DNA from: Verrucomicrobiaceae bacterium
GTDB lineage: Bacteria; Verrucomicrobiota; Verrucomicrobiia; Verrucomicrobiales; Akkermansiaceae
Length of the DNA stretch: 64,000 nucleotides
Assembly (NCBI GenBank): GCA_027491155.1
Contig: JAIXWR010000031.1
Span: forward strand, 1 to 64,000
Direction: 5' to 3'
Shown in pieces: positions 40,976 through 52,215 of this stretch. Position 1 is the stretch's first letter. Every line of letters begins with the position of its first letter. The position numbers and the translations under genes are program-made. Below the pieces are notes generated by a model that did not search any database, was not told the origin of the DNA, and was given only the letters and a program-made list of their open reading frames with translations.

Positions 40976-41032
40976 ATCGCCGATGATGAGAAGGGCGCGG
41001 AGGACTTCTCAAGAAAGGCCGGCAAGGCGTGA
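40976..41032 (+). pseudogene. Detached C-terminal tail of the antitoxin
   Basis: Open continuation of the antitoxin frame after the TAG, 18 codons, acidic then basic (ADDEKGAEDFSRK), ending in a TGA that overlaps the toxin start. It has no start codon of its own. Confidence 0.55.
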
Positions 41033-41439
41033 GGGTTTTCCTCGATAGCAGCGTGATGCTCTCGGCCCGCCGTTCGGGGAAATCCTTGTCCCGGCTGATC
41101 ACGGAGATCGCCGCGGAGAGAGGTTGGCGCTTGGTCTCCGCCAGCGACTGCCGCGCCGAAACCGGCAAGAACCTCGGCAAGCTGGGGCCTGAGGCCATCC
41201 TAAGGTGGCCGGAGTTGCAAACGCAGATCGAATGGGTGCCCAACGCCCTCACGAGCAAAAAGCCGCTGCTGCTGAGCGCCTCCAAGGACAAGCCGGTCCT
41301 GATTTCCGCCCTGGCTGCCAAGAGCGACGTGCTGCTGACGCTCGACAAAGGCGACTTCGGATTGCTGCTGGGGACGACCGTTTACGGGATGCAAGTGAGC
41401 ACGCCCCGGGATTTTTTGATCCAAGCGGGTCTAGGATAG
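41029..41439 (+). CDS. PIN-domain toxin
   Basis: 136 residues from a GTG start. All acidic positions of a PIN nuclease are intact: D6 (FLDSS), E44 (CRAETGKN), D87 (SASKDKPVL), D106 and D109 (LTLDKGDF). It resembles the PIN group with a C-terminal STPRDFL. With its antitoxin interrupted, survival would need read-through, a partly working short antitoxin, or control by another antitoxin. Confidence 0.82.
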   Translation: MRVFLDSSVMLSARRSGKSLSRLITEIAAERGWRLVSASDCRAETGKNLGKLGPEAILRWPELQTQIEWVPNALTSKKPLLLSASKDKPVLISALAAKSDVLLTLDKGDFGLLLGTTVYGMQVSTPRDFLIQAGLG

Positions 41440-41476: not shown

Positions 41477-41570
41477 GCGCCGGTCCTCAGACCGGCTCGA
41501 ATGGTTCCGCACTGCCGGTCTGCCTACTTCGCTGAAGCTACGAAGGCCAGGAAGGACCGGCGGTCCCGGG
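41477..41570. repeat. Dispersed GCCGGTC/GACCGGC repeat, copy 2
   Basis: Intergenic element with GCCGGTC (41479-41485), loop CTCA, GACCGGC (41490-41496), then a GCCGGTC and a closing GACCGGCGGTCCCGG. The same closing segment, in the opposite sense, starts copy 1 at 29559. Between the cores is an extra segment (TTCGCTGAAGCTACGAAGG) not in copy 1. It fills most of the 175 nt before the glycosidase gene. Confidence 0.55.
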
Positions 41571-41614
41571 GGAATGGGCTTTGCCGTGACCGGGATCGCG
41601 AACCAAGCTGCGCC

Positions 41615-43768
41615 GTGCCCTTTCCCCCGGACTTCCTCTTCGGAACCGCCAATGCCGACCACCAGGTGGAGGCGCACGATCCGGCGCGGGAGGATGTCTG
41701 GGACCTGTGGGAGCGCTGCCAGGGGCTGACGCCGCGGGGGCGGGGGACGGATTTCTGGAACCGCTACGAGGAGGACATCGCGGCGGCGGCGGGAATGGGC
41801 TGCAAGTTGTTCCGCTTCTCGATCGCCTGGGCGCGGGTGGAGCCGGCGGAGGGCGAGTTCGATGCGGAAGCGCTGGCGCATTACCGGAGGTTGGCGGACT
41901 GCATCCAATCGCATGGGATGAAGGTAATGGTCACACTGCACCATTTCGTCTGGCCGGTCTGGCTGGAGCGCGATCACGGCGGGATGATCGGTGAGGGCTT
42001 TCCGGATTTCTTCGCGCGCTACGCCGACAAGGTGGCGGAGGCGCTGGGCGATCTAACAGACTACTGGATCACCTTCAACGAGCCGAGCCAACTGACCTTC
42101 GGCTACATCAAGCCGTGGTGGCACCACCGCTACTACATGCCGCCGGGCTTGCCGCGCGGGACCTCGGTCGATGCCGAGGCGGAGGCGGTGGGGAAGTTCA
42201 TCCCGAACCTGTTCCGCGCCCATGCCCGGGCCCGGCAGCGGATCCAAAAGCGCGACCCGGCGGCGAAGGTCGGGGTCAACCCGCTGGTGACGGGCTTTCC
42301 GACCTGGCTGCAGATGCTGATGGACTGGGGTGCCTGCCACCGCGGATTGTCAGAGGCGGTTTTCAAGTTCACCGCCGGCGACGCCCTGGTCCGCGAGCGG
42401 GGCAAGGTGGACCTGGTGATCGGCGGGGTGACCGGCGGCGACCAGACGCGCTTCGAGTTCAGCGATCCCTACCTGCGCACCGGCAAGGCGGTGTTGGTGG
42501 TGGCGGGTTTTGCCGGCGGGGACCTGGCGTCTTTGGCGGGCAAGACCGTCGGCGTGGTGGCGATCGGCAACCAGCCGCAGGGCTGGAAGCGCGACTTGCC
42601 GGGGTCGGTGCGCAAGAAGATGTTTTCCAACTACGATGAAGCTCGTAGTTCGCTCGCCGCGGGCAAGGTGGCGGCGGTGTATGGCGACGCGTTCTTCCTG
42701 CTGCCCTTCGAGCTGAAGGATCGCGAGCGCTTCCGTTTTCTGGTCACCGGGCTGAGCGACGAGCACTACGTGGCGGTCGCGCCGCACGGCCACGCGCCGT
42801 TGATGGAGCACGTCAACCGGGCGATCGCGGGCTTCGAGCGCGAGCTGGCGGGCTACGGCCGCGAGCCGTGGATCTCACACCCGGAGGCGGTGGTCAAGGA
42901 GGTCGCGCGGCCCTTGTCGTTGCATGAGATGTTCGCCGGCGAGGACAGCCTGCCGGAGAGCATTTCCGGCACCCGTGGGATCCGCCGGATCCTCCGCCGC
43001 GGGCGGCTGCGGGTGGGCATCCGCTGCGACGCGCCGGGGGCTTCGGCCGAATGCGCGGGCGAAGGGCTGGAAGTGCGGCTGGCGCGCTTGATCGCCCGCG
43101 AGGTGCTGGGCGATGCCGATGCGCTGGAGCTGGTGCCGCTTTCACCGGCCGGGCGGCTGGAGGTGCTGGAATCGAAGTCGAGCTGGCTCAACTGGGCCTG
43201 GCGCTTCTGGGGCACCACCAGCCTGATCGCGAACGCGAACTGGTGGTATCTCGGGACTTCGGGGCGCTTGCCGGAGGAACTCTGCCCGGCGGAAGCGGTG
43301 GGCGCGCAGGACTTTGTCGGGCTCGATTATTACTGGGGCCTGCCGACGCGGCGGCTGCACCGGTTCCGTTTGTTAGAGGAGGCCGCTCACGGCCGCTTCC
43401 TCAGGGCTCCGGTCTGGCCGCAAGGGCTGTTCCATGCCTTGCAGAGATTTCACCGCTGGTTCCCAGGCCAGGAGCTGCTGGTGGTGGAGAACGGCTGCGT
43501 GCCCCAGGCCGACGGGATGACACGCGGCGAGTATCTGAAAGCCCATGTCGCGGAGGTCGAGCGTGCGATCGGCAGGGGCGTGCCGGTGAAGGCCTACAAC
43601 TACTGGTCGATCACCTCCAACCGCGAGTGGGGTCATGCCTTCGATCCGAACACCGACTTCGGGCTGTGCTTCGTGGACCTCGACAAGGACCCGGAGCTCA
43701 AGCGGGTGAAGACGGGGGAGGTGGGGGTTTATCGCGAATTGATCCGGGAGAAGACGGCGGTGAGGTGA
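41615..43768 (+). CDS. Family-1 glycosidase split by a permuted SBP domain
   Basis: 717 residues, GTG start; a longer frame begins inside the repeat. Residues 1-235 are the first half of a GH1 barrel: FLFGTANADHQVEA, VTLHHFVWPVWL and acid/base E156 in TFNEP. Residues about 525-717 are the second half, with nucleophile E625 in VVENG and YNYWSITSNREWG. Between them, about 285 residues match an SBP_bac_3 domain in reversed order: its later part first (GKVDLVIGG, FEFSDPYLRTGKA, SDEHYVAVAP, about 245-412), then its N-terminal part (RGRLRVGIRCDAPG, GLEVRLARLIA, 453-522). No signal peptide. Possibly a ligand-gated beta-glycosidase; substrate unknown. Confidence 0.85.
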   Translation: MPFPPDFLFGTANADHQVEAHDPAREDVWDLWERCQGLTPRGRGTDFWNRYEEDIAAAAGMGCKLFRFSIAWARVEPAEGEFDAEALAHYRRLADCIQSHGMKVMVTLHHFVWPVWLERDHGGMIGEGFPDFFARYADKVAEALGDLTDYWITFNEPSQLTFGYIKPWWHHRYYMPPGLPRGTSVDAEAEAVGKFIPNLFRAHARARQRIQKRDPAAKVGVNPLVTGFPTWLQMLMDWGACHRGLSEAVFKFTAGDALVRERGKVDLVIGGVTGGDQTRFEFSDPYLRTGKAVLVVAGFAGGDLASLAGKTVGVVAIGNQPQGWKRDLPGSVRKKMFSNYDEARSSLAAGKVAAVYGDAFFLLPFELKDRERFRFLVTGLSDEHYVAVAPHGHAPLMEHVNRAIAGFERELAGYGREPWISHPEAVVKEVARPLSLHEMFAGEDSLPESISGTRGIRRILRRGRLRVGIRCDAPGASAECAGEGLEVRLARLIAREVLGDADALELVPLSPAGRLEVLESKSSWLNWAWRFWGTTSLIANANWWYLGTSGRLPEELCPAEAVGAQDFVGLDYYWGLPTRRLHRFRLLEEAAHGRFLRAPVWPQGLFHALQRFHRWFPGQELLVVENGCVPQADGMTRGEYLKAHVAEVERAIGRGVPVKAYNYWSITSNREWGHAFDPNTDFGLCFVDLDKDPELKRVKTGEVGVYRELIREKTAVR

Positions 43769-43784: not shown

Positions 43785-46283
43785 TCATCCGCCATCTCGC
43801 CCCGACACGACGAAGCCCTCGTCATCGAGCTGGTAGCCTTGCGGAAGGGCGAGTCCTGCGGGAGCGGCGGGACCGCGGAGCTGGATTCGGTCGTCGCTCT
43901 TCACCACGGCGAAGCCCGGCAGCAGGATGCCGAGGGTGCCGGGCTTGCGGCCGCATTGCGGCTGGCTGGTGGCGACGGGCAGCGGGGGATCGGGCATCGA
44001 CACCGCGACGACGATGCCGTCGATGGCGAGGCAAGGGCAGTGGATCCAGTCGGTGCGTTCGAGCGGCTCCGCGGCGCGCGGGCTGAAGTCGAAAAAGACG
44101 GCCGGCTTTTCACGCGGCGGCGAGTTCTCGACGAGTCGTCGCAGGGCATCCCCGCCGAGCCAGAGGTCGCCGTCGGGCCAGGTGCCGGAGGACGGGACGA
44201 GGCCGGGGAAAGCGGCCAGGGGCGCGCGCTGCGACTTGCTGAAGACAGCGAGCGCGTGGAGCCGGCCGGGCAGGGGATCGCCGTCTAACAGATGGATCGG
44301 CCGCTTGCGCCGGAGCGCGTTGACCTGGGCGAGCTGGAGCGCGTTGGCGCGGATCGCGCGGCGGCCGGGTGCCATCTGGAAACGCCCCGTGCGGTGGTCG
44401 AGTGCCTGCGATGACGCTTCGAGCATTCCGAGCCGGACGCGCTCGAGATCCGCCTCCTTCGGCGGGATGGGTGTGCCGAAAGCGATGCTCAAGCCGTGGC
44501 GCAGCCCGTGGGGAAACTTGCGGAAGAAGCGGTTGCCTTCGAAGGAGAGGATCGATCCCCACGCGCCGTCGTTCCACACCGGGACCAGCGGGCAGCCGGC
44601 CTGGCGGGCGATCAGTTCGAAGCCGCGCTTGAGTTCGCGCAGCGTGCCGGTGCGGCTGAGCTGGCCTTCCGGGAAGATGCAGACGAGGTGGCCTTCCTTG
44701 AGCGAGTCGGCGGCGGCGCGCAGGGCCTCGCGGGGCTTGGCGGAAGAGATCGGAACCGTGTCGAAAAGCCGGCAGAAGACCCCGATGGCGCGCTTTCCCA
44801 TGAAGCCTTCTTCCATGATGAAGCGGATCGGCCGCGGGCAGGCGGCGGTGAGGAAAAACGCGTCGCCCCAGGTGATGTGGTTCGGCAGCAGCAGCGCGCC
44901 GCCGGTCGCGGGGAGATTGGATTCGCCGCGCGTGCGGATCCGGTAGAGCAGGCGCAGCAGCATCAGGCCGATGACCCGGACGAAATCGGACGGCAGCAGG
45001 CGGATGATGAACCAGGTGATTCCGCCGCAGGCGACCCCGGCGGCGGCGATTTGCACGCGCAGGGCTTCGGCCGGAGTGAAGCCGGCGGCCTTCGCCACCA
45101 CGCCGATGCCGATCAGCAGGCCGAGTGCGACGATTCCGGCCAGGCATTCCTGGAGATTGGCGGCGGCCTGGAGTCCCCCACGCTTTTCCGCCGGATAGCG
45201 GTCCTGCATCCAGGCGTTCAGCGGGGCGAGGAACAGGGCGGAGGCGAAGGCGAGGGATCCCAGCACGGCCAGGAAGCCCGCGCTCGAGGGATGAAGGAAA
45301 GCCAGCACCAGCGAGAGGAGGGTCATCACGGCACCCGCCACCGGCACCCATCCCAGCTCGATCCTGCGCCGCAGCAGGAAGGCGGCCGCGGCGAAGCCGC
45401 CGATCATCCCGAGCGAGGCGGCCGCCATGTAGAGCGACGACTTCGTGCCGAAGCCCGCCTGGCTGCCGGTCAAGTCGGCGGCGACCTTGACCGCCCACAG
45501 GTTGATGTAGGCGCCGAAGCCCCAGAAGAAGGCGGTGCCGAACGAGGCGCGGCGCAGCGGGGCGTCGGCCCACAACCCGCGGATCTGCGCGAAATGCTCG
45601 ATCAGGATCGCGCGGCCGGGTTTTCCCGCTCCATGGGCCGGAGTGCGCGGGACGATCCAAGCGAGCAGGATCGCGGGCACGGAGGCGGCGGTGAGGATGG
45701 CCAGCGGGAGGAAAGCCGCCTGCCAGGCGGTGTCCGGGCCGCCGCCGAGCGATTGCCATTGGCGGTCGTAGAGCACCCCGGCGGCGATCTGGCCGCTGAG
45801 CATCGCGATCATCGTCATCATCTGCTGGATCCCGCTGGCAAAGCCGAGATGACCCGGGCCGAGGAGCTCCTTGTTGATGCCGGTCTTGGCGGGGCTGAAG
45901 AAGGCGGACTGGACCGCCAGCGCGAAGAATCCCAGCAGGGCCATCGGCATGTTCTCCCGCCGGATCGCGAGGCAGAGGCCTGCAAGGATCAGCAACTGGG
46001 CGACCGCCGAGCCGATCATCACGTCGCGCTTGGAAAAGCGGTCGCTGAGCCAGCCGGCCATCGGGGCGAACAGGATGAAAGGCAGCGCGATCAGAACCGC
46101 GGCCAGATCCTCGACCCGGGCGCCGGCCACCGAAAACGCGAGCGCTCCGCCCAAGGGCACGAGAAGGAACTGGGCGACCTTGTCGTTGAAGGCATTCTGC
46201 GTCTGCTGGGCGATCATGCACCAGAAGCCCGCCCACTCGCGCCGGCCCGGCCTGCTCGATTCGTTCCGTTCCAGCACCTCCAT
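43785..46283 (-). CDS. MFS transporter-PlsC acyltransferase fusion, AMP-ligase remnant
   Basis: 832 residues, resembling LplT-Aas fusions that flip and re-acylate lysophospholipids. Residues about 20-420 are an MFS transporter with twelve helices (LSDRFSKRD loop). Residues about 430-640 are a PlsC domain with NHITWGD (HX4D) and FPEGQLSRTG. The last 190 residues look like a shrunken AMP-ligase: KPGTLGILLPGF and RIQLRGPA match the end of the acyl-ACP synthetase domain, and the protein ends where its catalytic hinge would come. The full ligase is about 500 residues. It converges on the glycosidase gene with a 16-nt gap. Confidence 0.85.
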   Translation of the reverse strand: MEVLERNESSRPGRREWAGFWCMIAQQTQNAFNDKVAQFLLVPLGGALAFSVAGARVEDLAAVLIALPFILFAPMAGWLSDRFSKRDVMIGSAVAQLLILAGLCLAIRRENMPMALLGFFALAVQSAFFSPAKTGINKELLGPGHLGFASGIQQMMTMIAMLSGQIAAGVLYDRQWQSLGGGPDTAWQAAFLPLAILTAASVPAILLAWIVPRTPAHGAGKPGRAILIEHFAQIRGLWADAPLRRASFGTAFFWGFGAYINLWAVKVAADLTGSQAGFGTKSSLYMAAASLGMIGGFAAAAFLLRRRIELGWVPVAGAVMTLLSLVLAFLHPSSAGFLAVLGSLAFASALFLAPLNAWMQDRYPAEKRGGLQAAANLQECLAGIVALGLLIGIGVVAKAAGFTPAEALRVQIAAAGVACGGITWFIIRLLPSDFVRVIGLMLLRLLYRIRTRGESNLPATGGALLLPNHITWGDAFFLTAACPRPIRFIMEEGFMGKRAIGVFCRLFDTVPISSAKPREALRAAADSLKEGHLVCIFPEGQLSRTGTLRELKRGFELIARQAGCPLVPVWNDGAWGSILSFEGNRFFRKFPHGLRHGLSIAFGTPIPPKEADLERVRLGMLEASSQALDHRTGRFQMAPGRRAIRANALQLAQVNALRRKRPIHLLDGDPLPGRLHALAVFSKSQRAPLAAFPGLVPSSGTWPDGDLWLGGDALRRLVENSPPREKPAVFFDFSPRAAEPLERTDWIHCPCLAIDGIVVAVSMPDPPLPVATSQPQCGRKPGTLGILLPGFAVVKSDDRIQLRGPAAPAGLALPQGYQLDDEGFVVSGRDGG

Positions 46284-46803
46284 CTCGCCCGCAGGTTAAA
46301 AAGACAACGAAGGAGAGGGAAGGGTGGAAATTCTTGTATGAAAGCGCCGCGGATGAGTAACAAAGCGAAAACTTTAAAACGCGTTTGGGAAAAAGATGCA
46401 GACCGGAAGCATCCCACAAACGTGTGATGCGCTGATTTGAAATGACCTAAAACCAGCGAGTTGCGATGATCGATCGGAGGGATTTTCCCCCGTGGTGCGG
46501 AAAAATACAAATCCTGCGCCGATTCATACAAGCAAGCGGATCATGATGCATTAGCCTCCGGATAGAGACGGCGGTTTTGCCCGACTTTTCCGGACAGGAA
46601 GAGCTCGGGCTCCGGCCGCCACTTGAAACCGAAACCCCTTCCTGTCCGAAAAACCCGCGGCACGGACCAAGCCGGCCGCCTTCAAGAAAACCCAACGCAT
46701 CGGTCCCCGCCGGGATTCTTCGTGGATTTCCGGTTTGCCCCTCCGGGTGGCAACCCTGTCCCCGGCACCGCGGGAAACGATCCCTGCCCCATCGCACGAA
46801 CCC
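46284..46803. other. 520-nt divergent intergenic region with inverted repeats
   Basis: No gene is supported. Between the divergent MFS-PlsC and giant surface-protein genes are two inverted repeats. One is long: TTTTCCGGACAGGAAG (46586-46601) with CTTCCTGTCCGAAAAA (46638-46653), one mismatch, 36-nt loop. The other is CTTGTATGAA (46333-46342) with TTCATACAAG (46523-46532), 180 nt apart. They may be regulatory, for instance a looping operator and a leader hairpin. Confidence 0.45.
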
Positions 46804-49800
46804 ATGAAAACCCCGCATCTTCACTCCCGCAGCAGCCTGTTGGAGACCGCCCTCGGCCTCGGCTGCATCCTCGCCGCATCGCTTCCGTCGACCCAGGCCG
46901 CACCGCTCTGGTGGGACGGGGTCAGCGGCGGCTGGGACTCCACCGCGAACTGGTCCACGGTGGCTTCCGCCGACAATCCCGATCCGGCCGCCGTGCCAGG
47001 GGTGGGCGATGACGTGACCTTCAACATCGACCCGGTGGACGGCGCGGCCGTCGTCAGCCTGAATGCCGCGCGGTCGGTCAATTCTCTGGTCTTCAACAAC
47101 ACCGGCACGACCCTGCTCCAGGGCGGCGGGGTGGCCAACCAGGTGCTGACCATCGGTGCCGGCGGGATCTCGGTCGATGCCGCGGCAGGAGCCGTGACCA
47201 TCGGTTCCACCACGGCATTGCAGGGCGTCACCACGACGATCGGCGCCACGCAGACCTGGCACAACGCTTCCCCGAACCCGCTGGTCGTGGCCAACCCGAT
47301 CGCCAGCGCGGGCGCGCTCGGCAGCGGGGCGGGCATCACCAAGACGGGCTCCGGCACGGTCTGGCTTTCCACCGGCACGAATCACCAGCTCAACGGCACC
47401 CTGGACATCCAGGCGGGCAAGGTCCAGGTCTCGAGCGACCTCACCATGGGCGGCCTCAGCGGGGCCGGCACGCTCGAGAACGGCGGTCCGAACTCGAAGT
47501 GGTTCTTCGTCAACACGCCGCTGAACCAGAATTTCTCCGGCACCATCCAGAACGGTCCCACGGCCGCCCGGCTCGGCTTCGTGAAGCGCGGCACCGGGGC
47601 GCTGACCCTTTCCGGCACCAGCGGCCCGGCACTCGACAACATGGGCGTGGAGAACGGGAGGATCATCCTCCCGACGGGCGGTTCGATCAGCGTGGGCGGC
47701 GTCAACTTCGGCTCCGTCAACATCGGCAACACCGGCAACGCCGCGAACAACGGCATCCTTGAAATCACCGGCGGCACGCTCAATGCCGCACGCACGACCA
47801 ACCCCGGGTTCACCGTGGGCGCGGGCAACAACGCCCGCGGCTTCGTCAAGATGACCGGCGGCACGCTGAACGTGACCGAGCAGCTCAAGATCGGCAACGG
47901 CAGCGCGACCGCCACCCCGGCCCACGCGGGCTTCACCCTGGATGCCGGCAATGTCACTTCCGGAAGCTGGCTGGTGGTCGGCCTCAATTTCGACCGCTCC
48001 CTGCTGACCCAGAACGGCGGCTCGATCACCGTGGCGGCCAACCGCATGACCATCGGTGCCGGCGGCAACGGCTCGATCGGCGTGGTCAACCTGAACGGCG
48101 GCACCTTCGACATCGCCGCGGGAGCCAACACCGGGATCTTCCTCGGGGAGAACGGGACGGGAACGATCAACGTGATGGGTAGCGCCGCGCTGTCCCTCGC
48201 CACCAACGGCGGGGCGACCAGCGGCACGATGCAGTTCGGTGGCAACGCGTCCTCGCTGGCCGGCACGCTCAACCTCCGCGGCGGCAGCCTCAGCACCTTC
48301 GCGGTGACCAAGGGCGCCTCGACCGCCACCGCGGTCTATCAGGTGAACTTCAACGGCGGCACCCTCAAGGCCGCGCAAACCAACCCGAACTTCCTGGCGG
48401 CCCTCGCCAACACCGAGGCCTACGTCCACGCGGGCGGCGGCACCATCGACAACAACGGCGGCAACATCGGCATCGCCGAACCGCTGCTCGCCCCGACCGG
48501 CAACGGCGTCAGCGCCAGCGGCCTGGTCACCTCCGGCGGCGGCTACCTTTACCCGCCGATCGTCACCATCACCGGCGGCGGCGGCACCGGGGCCTCGGCC
48601 ATCGCCAACATCGACGCCAGCGGCAACCTCACGGGGATCACCATCACCAACCCCGGGGTGAACTACACCAGCGCCCCGACCTTCGCCCTGGTCGGCGGCG
48701 GCGCCGGCAACACCGGGGCCCTCACCGGTGCCGCGAGCCTCGTCCCGAACACCAGCGGCGGGCTGACCTTCACCGGTGCGGGCACGACCAGCCTCACCGG
48801 GGCCAACACCTTCACCGGACCGATCTCCGTCAACGGCGGCAAGCTGGCGATCGGCGGGATCTATGCGAACGCCGTGACGGTGGCGGCGGGCAAGGGCATC
48901 ACCGTGGCGGATCCGGCCGGTGCGATCGGCTCCCTCAGCGTGCCTTCGCTCAACCTCGGCACCGGCGCGACGATCGACCTGGAGGCGAACGGCACGACCA
49001 GCGACAAGGTCGTGGTGACCAGCGCGGGAGGGCTTTCCCTCGGCACGCTCGGCTTCAACCTCTACGACAGCGGCACCACCAATCCGGCGCTCGCCGGCAC
49101 CTACACGGTGCTCGAATACAACACGTCCTTCAGCGGCGGCACCGCCGGGATGTCGGTGCTGAACCCGCGGCCCGGCTACGTTTACAACTTCTCCGATACC
49201 GGCAGCGCGATCACGGTGATCGCCACGGCCATCGACACCGACGGCGACGGGATGACCGACGTCTATGAAGTCGCCAACGGCCTCGATCCGAACGACGCCA
49301 CCGGCGTGAACGGTGCCTCCGGCAACCTCGACGGCGACTTCGCCACCAACCTCGAGGAATTCATCGCCGGCACCGGGGCCAACAACGCGGCTTCCGACCC
49401 GCTCAACACCGACAACGACGGCCTGCCCGACGCCTGGGAGGTCGCGAATTTCGGAAGCATCGCCGCGCAGACCGGCGCCGGCGACTTCGACGGCGACTTC
49501 GATTCCAACCTGCTGGAGTTCACCAACGGCACCGTCGCCAACAGCGCCGCGAGCCTGAGCGACACCGACGCCGACGGACTCGGGGACGGCTGGGAGACCC
49601 TGTATTTCTCGGTGCTCACCGCCAAGGATGGCACCGTCGACAGCGACGGCGACCTCTTCACCGATCTCGAGGAATACCAGTATGGGTCCGATCCCAACGA
49701 CTCCTCCTTCTCGCCCGCCTTCGGCAAGGCGGTCCACCGCTGGAGCTTCAGCGGGAACCTGAACGATTCGATCGGTACCAGCCACGCCACCATCGAGAAC

Positions 49801-52215
49801 GGCCCGACCAACGGGGCCAACGTGGCGACCGTGGGCGCGGACTCCGTGACCCTGACCGGCGGCGCGAAGGCCAACTCGCAGTGGGTCAAGCTCGGCAGCA
49901 ACCTGCTGCCGTCCCGCAACACCCCGTGCACCATCCAGCTCTGGGCCACGGCCAATGCGACACAGAACTGGTCCCGTATCTTCGACTTCCACAGCAGCAC
50001 CGCGGAGAATCTCTACATGAGCTGGTCCGTCGCTACCGGCGCGCTGACCGACCGCGTCCAGTGGAACGACGGCGGCGGTGCCAACAGCATCATCGTCGAC
50101 AACACCAACCAGTACGCGCTTTCCACGAAATATCACATCGTGATGACCGTGGAACCGGCCGCCACCCCGGGAAGCTCGCTGGTGAAGTGGTACTCCGCTC
50201 CCGAGTACAACGGCACCACCAACCTCGACCTGGGCGCGGCCCGCGGCAGCTTCACCATCCCGAACAGCCTCGCGCTGCTCAACGACTCGATCAACGCACT
50301 CGGCTTCTCGCCCTACAACGACAACACCCCGAGCGCGACCTACGACGAGGTCCGGCTGTGGGACGGCGCGCTGTCGCAGTGGGCGCTCGAGGCCTTGCAC
50401 GACCAGGGCCCGGGCGATCCCGTCCTGGCCGATTCCGATGCCGACAAGCTCCCCGACGCGTTCGAGCAGTTCTACTTCGGCAACCTCGCCGAAGGGCCCG
50501 CGAGCGACACCGACGGCGACTTCAGCTCCAACCGCGACGAGTTGCTCGCCGGTTCCGATCCCGACGACGCCTCGTCCAGCCCGAACGACTCCGATGCCGA
50601 CGGCCTGCCGGATGCCTGGGAGATGAACTTCTTCGGCGACCTCGACGAGACGGCCGGCGGCGATCCCGACGGCGACTTCGCCCTCAACAGCGACGAGCTT
50701 TCGGCGTCCAGCAATCCCTCGCTTTACACCTCGTTCCCGGATTCCGACTCCGACGGCATGTCCGACGCGTGGGAGACCTTCTACGTCGGCAATCTGAGCG
50801 ACAACGGAACCGGTGATGGCGATGGCGATGGCTTCAACACCCTTGCCGAATTCGTCGCGAAGAGCCTGCCGAACGCTCCGCTGTCTCCCGGCGTGCCCGA
50901 CGGCGATGCCGACAACGACGGATTGCCCGACCGATGGGAAACCACCTGGTTCAGTGCCACCACCCTGGCCACCGCGAACGGTGCCGGCGATGCCGATGGC
51001 GACGGCGCGACCAACCTGGCCGAGTATGAGGCCACCTCCGATCCCCAGGCGGCCACCTCGACACCGGCCGACGTGAACGGCGACGGAACCCCGGACCAGC
51101 GCGTCTTCCACGGCCTCAATGCCGCGGGCACCGGCTTGCAGGACAAGGATGGTGAAGCGACCCCGTTCACCGTCAGGCTCGGCAACACCGGCACGGCCAT
51201 CCCCAGCGTCGATCCCAGGCTCGACCTCGACACCACGGCCGGCACGCTGGCGATGACCACGTCTTCCTCGGACATCAACGGTCAGGTGAACATGGCGCAG
51301 CTCGAGGCCATCGGCATCCCGCTGTCCTCGCTCGGCTTCACCGGTAACCAGGACTTCCGGATCCGGGCGCACTACGTGAACATGCCGGCACTCGGCGGCT
51401 ACGATCAGGTCGGCGCCTACGTCGGCACTTCAAGCACCGCGATGACCCGCGCGGCCGCGATTGGCGCGAACCATCTCGCGCTGGGCGTCAACACGAACGG
51501 TGCTGCCGACTCCGCCGCTACCTTCGGGGCGGTGGGATCGGGGGGCGCCGCACTGCGCGACCTGACGGTGGTCATCGAGCGGATCGGCGGCGTGTGGTCC
51601 ATGAGCTGCAATGGAAATCCCAGCAACCCGGGAGCCCAACCGGCCTTCCTCGACGGGAACGCGGCGCTGCAGGCCGGGGTCTTCGTGCTCGACCAGAACG
51701 TCAACAAGACGGCCATCCTGGAAAGCTTCACCGCGGTCAGCTTCGGGGCCTCCTCGCCGGATGCGGACGACGACGGCATGGACGACGCCTGGGAAACCGC
51801 CAACTTCGGCAACACGGGCCGCGACGGCACGCTCGACTTCGATTCCGACGGCGTGAACGACCTGACCGAGTTCGCCTTCGACGGCGATCCCGGAAGCGGG
51901 TCTTCGACCGGGACCCTGAGCAGCGCCCTGGCGGACACCAACGGCAATTTGCAGAAGGAGCTGACGCTGACCGTGGCGGTCCGCAGCGGTGCCACCTTCG
52001 GAGCCGGTGCCGGCGGGACCCAGGTGGCCACCGTCGGCGGGGTGACCTACACCATCCGCGGGTCGCTGGATCTGACCACCTTCACCAGCGCGGTCAGCCA
52101 CGTGGGCAGCACGGCGTCGGGCAATCCCGACTACGAACTGCACACCTTCCGCCTGAACGCGTCCGAAGGACTCGCGGGCAAGGGCTTCCTGCAGGCGGTT
52201 GCCACGCACCCCTGA
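46804..52215 (+). CDS. Giant beta-strand/LamG/calcium-repeat surface protein
   Basis: 1803 residues. Signal peptide 1-35. Residues about 40-800 are glycine/threonine-rich beta-helix repeats of the autotransporter-associated type, the clearest being TSLTGANTFTGPISVNGGKL near 660. Then come eight calcium-type cassettes of the form DxDxDGxxDxWE, starting near 812, 868, 920, 1210, 1262, 1313, 1367 and 1652; a LamG-like domain (about 976-1200; VHRWSFSGNLNDS) lies between the third and fourth. No autotransporter barrel and no PEP-CTERM tail is present, so anchoring is unclear. Probably adhesion or polysaccharide binding. Confidence 0.82.
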   Translation: MKTPHLHSRSSLLETALGLGCILAASLPSTQAAPLWWDGVSGGWDSTANWSTVASADNPDPAAVPGVGDDVTFNIDPVDGAAVVSLNAARSVNSLVFNNTGTTLLQGGGVANQVLTIGAGGISVDAAAGAVTIGSTTALQGVTTTIGATQTWHNASPNPLVVANPIASAGALGSGAGITKTGSGTVWLSTGTNHQLNGTLDIQAGKVQVSSDLTMGGLSGAGTLENGGPNSKWFFVNTPLNQNFSGTIQNGPTAARLGFVKRGTGALTLSGTSGPALDNMGVENGRIILPTGGSISVGGVNFGSVNIGNTGNAANNGILEITGGTLNAARTTNPGFTVGAGNNARGFVKMTGGTLNVTEQLKIGNGSATATPAHAGFTLDAGNVTSGSWLVVGLNFDRSLLTQNGGSITVAANRMTIGAGGNGSIGVVNLNGGTFDIAAGANTGIFLGENGTGTINVMGSAALSLATNGGATSGTMQFGGNASSLAGTLNLRGGSLSTFAVTKGASTATAVYQVNFNGGTLKAAQTNPNFLAALANTEAYVHAGGGTIDNNGGNIGIAEPLLAPTGNGVSASGLVTSGGGYLYPPIVTITGGGGTGASAIANIDASGNLTGITITNPGVNYTSAPTFALVGGGAGNTGALTGAASLVPNTSGGLTFTGAGTTSLTGANTFTGPISVNGGKLAIGGIYANAVTVAAGKGITVADPAGAIGSLSVPSLNLGTGATIDLEANGTTSDKVVVTSAGGLSLGTLGFNLYDSGTTNPALAGTYTVLEYNTSFSGGTAGMSVLNPRPGYVYNFSDTGSAITVIATAIDTDGDGMTDVYEVANGLDPNDATGVNGASGNLDGDFATNLEEFIAGTGANNAASDPLNTDNDGLPDAWEVANFGSIAAQTGAGDFDGDFDSNLLEFTNGTVANSAASLSDTDADGLGDGWETLYFSVLTAKDGTVDSDGDLFTDLEEYQYGSDPNDSSFSPAFGKAVHRWSFSGNLNDSIGTSHATIENGPTNGANVATVGADSVTLTGGAKANSQWVKLGSNLLPSRNTPCTIQLWATANATQNWSRIFDFHSSTAENLYMSWSVATGALTDRVQWNDGGGANSIIVDNTNQYALSTKYHIVMTVEPAATPGSSLVKWYSAPEYNGTTNLDLGAARGSFTIPNSLALLNDSINALGFSPYNDNTPSATYDEVRLWDGALSQWALEALHDQGPGDPVLADSDADKLPDAFEQFYFGNLAEGPASDTDGDFSSNRDELLAGSDPDDASSSPNDSDADGLPDAWEMNFFGDLDETAGGDPDGDFALNSDELSASSNPSLYTSFPDSDSDGMSDAWETFYVGNLSDNGTGDGDGDGFNTLAEFVAKSLPNAPLSPGVPDGDADNDGLPDRWETTWFSATTLATANGAGDADGDGATNLAEYEATSDPQAATSTPADVNGDGTPDQRVFHGLNAAGTGLQDKDGEATPFTVRLGNTGTAIPSVDPRLDLDTTAGTLAMTTSSSDINGQVNMAQLEAIGIPLSSLGFTGNQDFRIRAHYVNMPALGGYDQVGAYVGTSSTAMTRAAAIGANHLALGVNTNGAADSAATFGAVGSGGAALRDLTVVIERIGGVWSMSCNGNPSNPGAQPAFLDGNAALQAGVFVLDQNVNKTAILESFTAVSFGASSPDADDDGMDDAWETANFGNTGRDGTLDFDSDGVNDLTEFAFDGDPGSGSSTGTLSSALADTNGNLQKELTLTVAVRSGATFGAGAGGTQVATVGGVTYTIRGSLDLTTFTSAVSHVGSTASGNPDYELHTFRLNASEGLAGKGFLQAVATHP

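Follow-up and report, generated by a model that had tools for sequence, protein, structure and literature searches.

The stretch of DNA analysed here (the window) comprises 64,000 nucleotides of contig JAIXWR010000031.1 from a Verrucomicrobiaceae bacterium (assembly GCA_027491155.1). The gene of interest in it, referred to as GH1-SBP, encodes a predicted glycosidase of glycoside hydrolase family 1 (GH1) that is split by a permuted solute-binding protein (SBP) domain of the amino-acid type. This split had been described in an initial annotation made without database searches, and sequence comparison confirms that the observation is real. The gene occupies the open frame 41501-43768 on the plus strand (755 amino acids). 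Its start codon is uncertain: there is an in-frame ATG at 41501, and homology begins only at about a GTG at 41615, which is therefore the likely start and gives a protein of 717 residues. Residues are counted from this GTG, as in the initial annotation, and the parts of the gene are listed in Table 1. According to the alignment, the insert as a whole extends over residues 263-521 (42401-43177), about 260 residues, with edges accurate to 1-2 residues. The initial annotation had thus been right to see an SBP-like extra domain, but its limits of 240-525 (285 residues) were too wide.

Table 1. Parts of the GH1-SBP gene, with positions in the window
Feature	Residues	Position	Strand	Evidence or remark
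N-terminal half of GH1 barrel: strands 1-5 and acid/base E156 in TFNEP	1-262	41615-42400	+	PF00232 E 4.1e-51 in two stretches; VIA-align Z about 40
Codon of acid/base E156	156	42080-42082	+	invariant in 52/52 rows
Insert, C-part of SBP: second half of lobe 1, whole lobe 2, C-terminal helix	263-412	42401-42850	+	phmmer match to 4zv1; profile against 5eyf
Linker from old C-terminus to old N-terminus	413-453	42851-42973	+	low pLDDT (predicted local distance difference test score); length varies among members
Insert, N-part of SBP: first half of lobe 1	454-521	42974-43177	+	phmmer match to 2yjp; profile against 5eyf
C-terminal half of GH1 barrel: helix 5, strands 6-8, nucleophile E625 in VVENG	522-717	43178-43765	+	
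Codon of nucleophile E625	625	43487-43489	+	invariant in 51/51 rows reaching the position
Stop codon		43766-43768	+	

The assignment of the barrel to GH1 is borne out by several lines of evidence. The PF00232 match of the window protein scores 174.3 bits against a cut-off of 22.6, and the AlphaFold2 model of the protein aligns to GH1 crystal structures (including 1uyq and 6z1m) with VIA-align Z scores of 38.9-40.3 over 348-395 residues spanning the model from 1 to 717 (best 50 rows). In an alignment of 52 homologues (A3), Q17, H110, N155, E156, D571 and Y573 are invariant in all rows, and E625, W664, E671 and W672 in all 51 rows that extend that far. The alignment leaves out L048 (in-frame stop), L050 and L061 (cut by contig ends), L071 (many in-frame stops in the joined match), the short L075, L085 and L086, the distant L078-L084, and some near-copies. 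With the exception of D571 and Y573, these invariant residues are presumably those that serve catalysis and glycone binding throughout GH1. The two catalytic glutamates are 469 residues apart, in agreement with the roughly 470 residues estimated before. On these grounds, the protein is predicted to be a retaining beta-glycosidase of family GH1 with intact catalytic residues.

The insert is assigned to the type-II amino-acid solute-binding domains (SBP_bac_3). Its parts follow each other in the order C-part, linker, N-part, as expected for a circular permutant; the permutation is confirmed by sequence and supported by structure prediction. The alignment and the swapped PDB matches place the break at RLEVLES / GKVDLVIGG, between helix 2 and the next strand, with the C-part before the N-part, exactly as the initial annotation had it. 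When a profile (A5) built from 22 inserts of the window lineage (29 verrucomicrobial rows, a grouping of our own) was searched against the PDB, it matched solved amino-acid SBPs down to E-values of 8.7e-25 (4zv1) and 4.2e-23 (5eyf). On 5eyf, profile positions 2-150 correspond to chain residues 77-226 and positions 216-257 to chain residues 34-75, a swap with one chain residue in between. The window insert by itself is matched by phmmer to 4zv1 (query 2-148 to chain 68-219) and, in two pieces, to 2yjp (query 184-258 to chain 37-114, and query 2-149 to chain 116-264). The closest SBP relatives of the insert are glutamine, glutamate and arginine-type binders.

The same conclusion is reached with other members of the family. 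Full-length L063, L058 and L077 each match PF00497 in two stretches (2.1e-23, 1.5e-28 and 3.7e-14; 83, 99.6 and 53 bits, with a cut-off of 26.4). After rotation and joining, each match becomes a single stretch that covers profile positions 1-131, 1-131 and 1-129 of 132 (7.6e-27, 4.5e-32 and 7e-18). In the genome of L058, profile positions 53-131 are found upstream of positions 1-55 within one frame of 742 amino acids. As a rotation control, inserts were compared with 18 free-standing SBP frames, taken from several of the same genomes and from their relatives (L167 and L175 were excluded). Rotation extended partial alignments to nearly the full length; for example, the E-value of L110 fell from 1.0e-24 as found, with a partial match, to 2.65e-44 in rotated form, with a match of nearly full length, and that of the window insert from 1.1e-11 to 4.6e-17. 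The NCBIfam family TIGR01096 matches the window protein with 1.8e-9, far under the NCBI cut-off score. It had also been pointed out that a tandem SBP pair that lost half of each copy would give the same order. This is a conceivable route to the same product, but not a rival explanation of it; none of the inserts in the 52 rows of A3 is long enough for a complete tandem pair (the longest has 290 residues).

The AlphaFold2 models are confident overall, with a pLDDT of 85.4 and a predicted template modelling score (pTM) of 0.81 for the window protein, and 88.8 and 0.88 for L063. In both models, the predicted secondary structure of the insert runs from strand 3 to the C-terminal helix, and then through the linker to strand 1, helix 1 and strand 2, which fits a rotated SBP. 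Foldseek and VIA searches with the whole window model yielded only GH1 proteins among the best 50 rows and are uninformative about the insert. The second-ranked match of the L063 model in BFVD is annotated as an ABC (ATP-binding cassette) amino-acid transporter protein (root mean square deviation 2.2, query template modelling score TMq 0.18), and may fall on the insert. In the window model, beta-5 (residues 218-222) is followed by the insert, a helix (523-548) and beta-6 (567-571). The beta-alpha loops of a TIM barrel lie on its catalytic side, and the insert in the beta-5/alpha-5 loop is therefore expected, by topology, at the rim of the active site.

The architecture is found well beyond the window. 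In A3, 47 of the 52 rows share the break and have 220-290 inserted residues, three have a shorter insert whose parts follow the same order, and two lack it, so that the call for homologues sharing the break has been answered. Full-length matches are present in 14 of the 17 other genomes of the genus (not in G001, G014 and G017); the copy in G005, a genome that is 61% complete, has an in-frame stop near its end. A scan of named genomes gave 56 loci. The carriers include the isolates Luteolibacter marinus, Haloferula luteola, Roseibacillus persicicus and R. ishigakijimensis, and metagenome-assembled genomes (MAGs) assigned to Crocosphaera, Calothrix, Anaerolineae, Methanosaeta, Methanosarcinales, Proteobacteria and soil Verrucomicrobiota. 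Since the non-verrucomicrobial named carriers are all MAGs, any single assignment may reflect contamination. In three relatives of the Calothrix MAG, the contigs with the gene measure 6.7-8.6 Mb. This MAG and its sampled relatives, 245 genomes in all, include 21 with a full-length copy in one frame, besides G556, whose copy is divided between two frames, and G483, which has only the portion from the middle of the insert onward. The carriers in this set are called cyanobacterial-type below, which is a label and not an established kinship. Within the Verrucomicrobiota the distribution is patchy: of 387 genomes sampled across the phylum, the genome of the window among them, 8 gave a full-length match, and each of these belongs to the family of the window; to these the soil MAGs from the named scan are to be added. 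A pattern-based scan of viral contigs gave no viral relatives. At L147 (6980-9186 in G556), the gene is interrupted in the linker and continues in a second, overlapping frame, so that either frame encodes one half of the barrel and one half of the SBP; this may be a natural split protein or a frame error.

Relatives without the insert exist as well. In L069, L070, L153 and L154, the distance between flanking markers is 53-63 residues, compared to 271-342 in 45 fully inserted rows (L043 and L127 were skipped in this count, as the marker motif was unmatched). L070 comes from a Chloroflexi MAG and L069 from a bacterial MAG; when 100 relatives of the L070 genome were searched, just the two that carry L153 and L154 matched at E<=1e-60. 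The insert is present on both sides of a deep split in the tree built from GH1 only. In GH1-only trees the insertless rows require two changes; holding them together is not rejected (p-AU 0.586, approximately unbiased test), and the outgroup branch is long. They may therefore form one clade, and both a single gain (with the root beside them) and a single loss fit. In a tree of the SBP parts, 27 rotated inserts all fall on one side of a branch that separates them from 14 free SBPs (L164, L167, L168, L169, L170 and L175 excluded). The support of 85/59 is not decisive, and the grouping is compatible with one origin of the rotated insert. The split had also come out, with a support of 38, in an earlier tree that used 20 free rows, but this tree contained two erroneous rows, L175 (a wrong stretch) and L167 (a wrong frame), and several very long branches. 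In a set of 59 genomes, all 7 full-length matches of the permuted domain are located inside GH1-SBP genes that had already been found, and the other 4 matches at E<=1e-30 cover only the first part, in frames of 272-304 amino acids.

The best explanation overall, for which we see about an even chance, is that of a GH1 enzyme with a permuted SBP in the beta-5/alpha-5 loop that is switched by amino acids wherever the ligand residues are kept. In the architecture shown by sequence and prediction, the old SBP ends are joined by the linker, and the new ends, both in lobe 1, are fused to the barrel. Lobe 1 would then be clamped to the barrel, with lobe 2 acting as a free jaw. Where the ligand residues are retained (the cyanobacterial, proteobacterial, Anaerolineae and archaeal types), a bound amino acid would close lobe 2 and alter access to the glycoside pocket, and the enzyme could thereby be switched by the intracellular amino-acid (nitrogen) status. 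In this SBP family, the Arg after strand 3 is presumably the anchor of the ligand carboxylate, and an Asp in lobe 2 and several Ser/Thr are taken to be further ligand positions. Outside the window lineage, the Arg and the lobe-2 Asp are present in 21/21 rows, and the three motif positions have Ser/Thr in 13, 20 and 19 of 21. Judged by these residues, control of the activity by amino acids is the likeliest reading for the members that retain them, and gating is plausible for the cyanobacterial type.

PF00497 gives no match to the complete window protein at E<=1, and none to its insert, to either half of the insert or to the rotated join; the Pfam comparison proposed in the initial annotation thus fails for this protein and succeeds for L063, L058 and L077. 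As the profile is blind to the window insert, the case for the latter rests on the PDB matches, the rotation control, the NCBIfam match, and on its relatives and orthology. Several findings weigh against the best explanation given above. The whole-chain model, likewise proposed earlier, is weak at the first junction (block means of 61, 59, 81 and 64 for residues 241-280) and in the linker (block values of 46-79, with low pLDDT at 423-430 and 448-451); L063 is better at the first junction, with 73-95 for residues 251-270. The insertless relatives keep the GH1 core. In the window lineage, the Arg is left in 1/29 rows and the Ser/Thr motif is replaced, with the Asp in 27/29; three of these rows have shortened inserts, which makes their columns unsure. 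The mean identity among the 26 complete rows of this lineage is 72.9% for GH1 and 52.1% for the insert (77.3% and 65.8% among 13 cyanobacterial-type rows). Finally, L062, L064 and L065 lack most of the sequence between window residues 287-291 and 379-385.

This missing stretch corresponds to about lobe 2, judging from the profile-to-chain offsets on 5eyf, which were carried over by hand, and lobe 1, with the fusion points, appears to stay in permuted order. In a related protein of the SBP fold, the small domain is reported to be formed by the contiguous residues 99-194 and the large domain by both ends of the chain (PMC7683729). L062, L064 and L065 can be described as natural half-receptors. 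The ratio of nonsynonymous to synonymous substitution rates (dN/dS) is 0.07-0.38 for the insert and 0.05-0.15 for GH1 in the 14 computable of 15 pairs, which share rows (L064/L065 gave no dS); it is lower for the insert than for GH1 in 2 of the 14. The insert is therefore still under purifying selection. The initial annotation had interpreted the protein as a glycan sensor. This does not fit, because the insert belongs to an amino-acid SBP family and the window lineage is without the Arg and the Ser/Thr at the ligand positions. The sensor claim is weakened for the member in the window, and plausible for part of the family. In the window lineage, the amino-acid pocket would have eroded, and the insert may now be a lid, a scaffold or a binder of something else, with lobe 1 kept and most of lobe 2 gone in three relatives. 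For the window protein, a lid, a scaffold or a changed ligand is the likelier role, and its own sensor is probably altered or structural. Taken as a whole, the family might represent natural single-chain allosteric glycosidases of bacteria and archaea, in which a permuted amino-acid receptor gates the active site, and of which the window lineage lost the pocket and some relatives the moving lobe; we put this forward tentatively, as somewhat short of an even chance.

The findings just described can also be read as signs that the insert has no ligand. It could be a structural or docking module that stabilizes the barrel, lids the aglycone side, or binds a partner protein or the membrane, and the permutation would then only have fitted its ends to the loop. 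The loss of the ligand residues in the window lineage, the faster divergence of the insert, the three of the 52 rows that have given up most of lobe 2 but keep GH1, and the very existence of insertless relatives all agree with such a role. It is hard to reconcile with the Arg and Asp, conserved without exception outside the window lineage, and with the Ser/Thr positions, since a scaffold would need neither. We regard this alternative as a serious but rather doubtful one. Still less can be said for a third possibility, namely that the SBP part holds an amino-acid-like end of the substrate (for example an aminoacylated or amino-sugar lipid) while GH1 cleaves, in the manner of a carbohydrate-binding module. 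The topology, with the insert in a loop of the catalytic face, and the resemblance of the cyanobacterial-type neighbours to lipid and terpenoid enzymes would be in line with it. On the other side, no candidate substrate was identified, and SBPs usually engulf small free ligands, which makes this reading improbable. Lastly, an assembly or sequencing error that joined two genes, named as a possible flaw in the initial annotation, or an alignment artefact found no support and has a negligible probability, and an assembly or frameshift origin is ruled out by the independent genomes, as the order recurs in nearly all rows, the shortened ones included, in isolates as well as MAGs and in most congeneric genomes, and as HMM (hidden Markov model) and BLAST matches reveal the swap independently of the multiple alignment.

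Compared to known proteins, the window protein has the same barrel, catalytic glutamates and glycone residues as GH1 beta-glycosidases (PF00232; 4r27, 1vff, 6z1h/6z1m). It differs from them by the SBP in the beta-5/alpha-5 loop, and by D571 in place of the N of the usual N-Y-Y motif in 52/52 rows. With SBP_bac_3 proteins (PF00497; 5eyf, 4zv1, 2yjp, GlnH) the insert shares the sequence family, the predicted secondary structure and, outside the window lineage, the ligand residues. Unlike them, it is rotated and inside an enzyme; a signal peptide is not visible, and the neighbours scanned showed no ABC-transporter domain. The natural SBP-regulated proteins BvgS and MltF, which the 22-insert profile matches weakly by sequence, also have an SBP_bac_3-type domain on an effector. 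These we take to be end-to-end fusions in normal order, with the domain neither inserted nor permuted. The PDB entry 8in1 (994 amino acids), the top PDB row for L110, was considered as a fused GH1 protein and dismissed: its four stretches represent two plain tandem GH1 copies.

Among the papers listed by searches of the open PubMed Central literature, engineered chimeras were seen and no natural GH1 protein with an inserted or permuted SBP. In RG13, a circularly permuted beta-lactamase is inserted into maltose-binding protein and activated by maltose (PMC3375305), and in XynA-XBP a GH11 xylanase is inserted into xylose-binding protein and stimulated by xylose (PMC4896006). Both are insertional fusions of an enzyme and a two-lobed binding protein, as in GH1-SBP, and RG13 also shares the permutation. 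The two are engineered and place the enzyme inside the SBP, whereas in our case a permuted SBP is naturally placed inside the enzyme. The precedents indicate that such fusions can switch. Natural circular permutation in a glycosidase is also seen in MalS, a GH13_19 alpha-amylase (PMC10223318), where it concerns the domains of the enzyme itself; the abstract mentions no SBP. PMC5342196 appears unrelated to this architecture. Engineers build ligand-controlled enzymes by inserting enzymes and SBPs into one another, sometimes with permutation, and GH1-SBP looks like the counterpart made by evolution. With the family, two questions become directly testable: what allows a barrel to accommodate a permuted domain, and how allostery arises or decays. 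The insertless relatives can serve as controls, and lineages at different stages of sensor loss are at hand. If the gating is true, GH1-SBP would be an amino-acid-controlled glycosidase that links nitrogen status to the turnover of glycosides, perhaps of lipid glycosides.

The genomic context gives some hints to the substrate. Fifteen cyanobacterial-type neighbourhoods (L058, L137-L149, L151) were examined, with flanks of up to about 8 kb per side; neighbours were clustered by BLASTP, and one member of each cluster was scanned with Pfam. Near GH1-SBP there are proteins of the alpha/beta-hydrolase type in 11 loci, a GMC (glucose-methanol-choline; cholesterol-oxidase-like) oxidoreductase in 10, 3beta-HSD (hydroxysteroid dehydrogenase)/epimerase-like and DUF6765 proteins in 6 each, and patatin-like proteins in 4, counts that are not independent, as several loci are close relatives, and that stand without random genomic places as comparison. 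The NCBIfam cholesterol-oxidase match of the GMC neighbour is under the cut-off. L137, L139, L143, L146, L147 and L148 each have a DUF6765 gene close to the GMC oxidoreductase and GH1-SBP. Members of the GMC cluster (two frames) and of the patatin cluster (one frame) are also found close to the insertless Chloroflexi locus L070. No signal peptide was visible by eye (no predictor was used, and start codons are uncertain), and no ABC-transporter domain was detected in 5 neighbouring frames of the window or in 10 neighbours from cyanobacterial-type genomes. Since no signal peptide is visible, and in view of the cyanobacterial-type neighbours, the enzyme is probably intracellular, and its substrate would be a glycoside of a lipid or terpenoid, or at any rate a small one, more likely than a polysaccharide.

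Around the gene in the window, no neighbour cluster linking it to the cyanobacterial-type setting was seen, and its neighbours (a PIN-like protein, an MFS-acyltransferase fusion and a histidine kinase) show no functional link to it. The PIN-domain-like protein is encoded directly upstream, at 41029-41439 on the plus strand (PF13470, E 5.1e-5, below the cut-off). A fusion of an MFS (major facilitator superfamily) transporter and an acyltransferase (PF07690 and PF01553) is convergent with GH1-SBP, at 43785-46283 on the minus strand. Further downstream, two very long frames overlap on opposite strands, 46735-52215 (plus) and 46447-51372 (minus). The minus-strand frame has no domain match at E<=0.001. 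The plus-strand frame matches TSP3 and, narrowly under the cut-off, PATR-like and laminin-G-like domains; it is therefore probably the real gene, and perhaps encodes a large surface protein.

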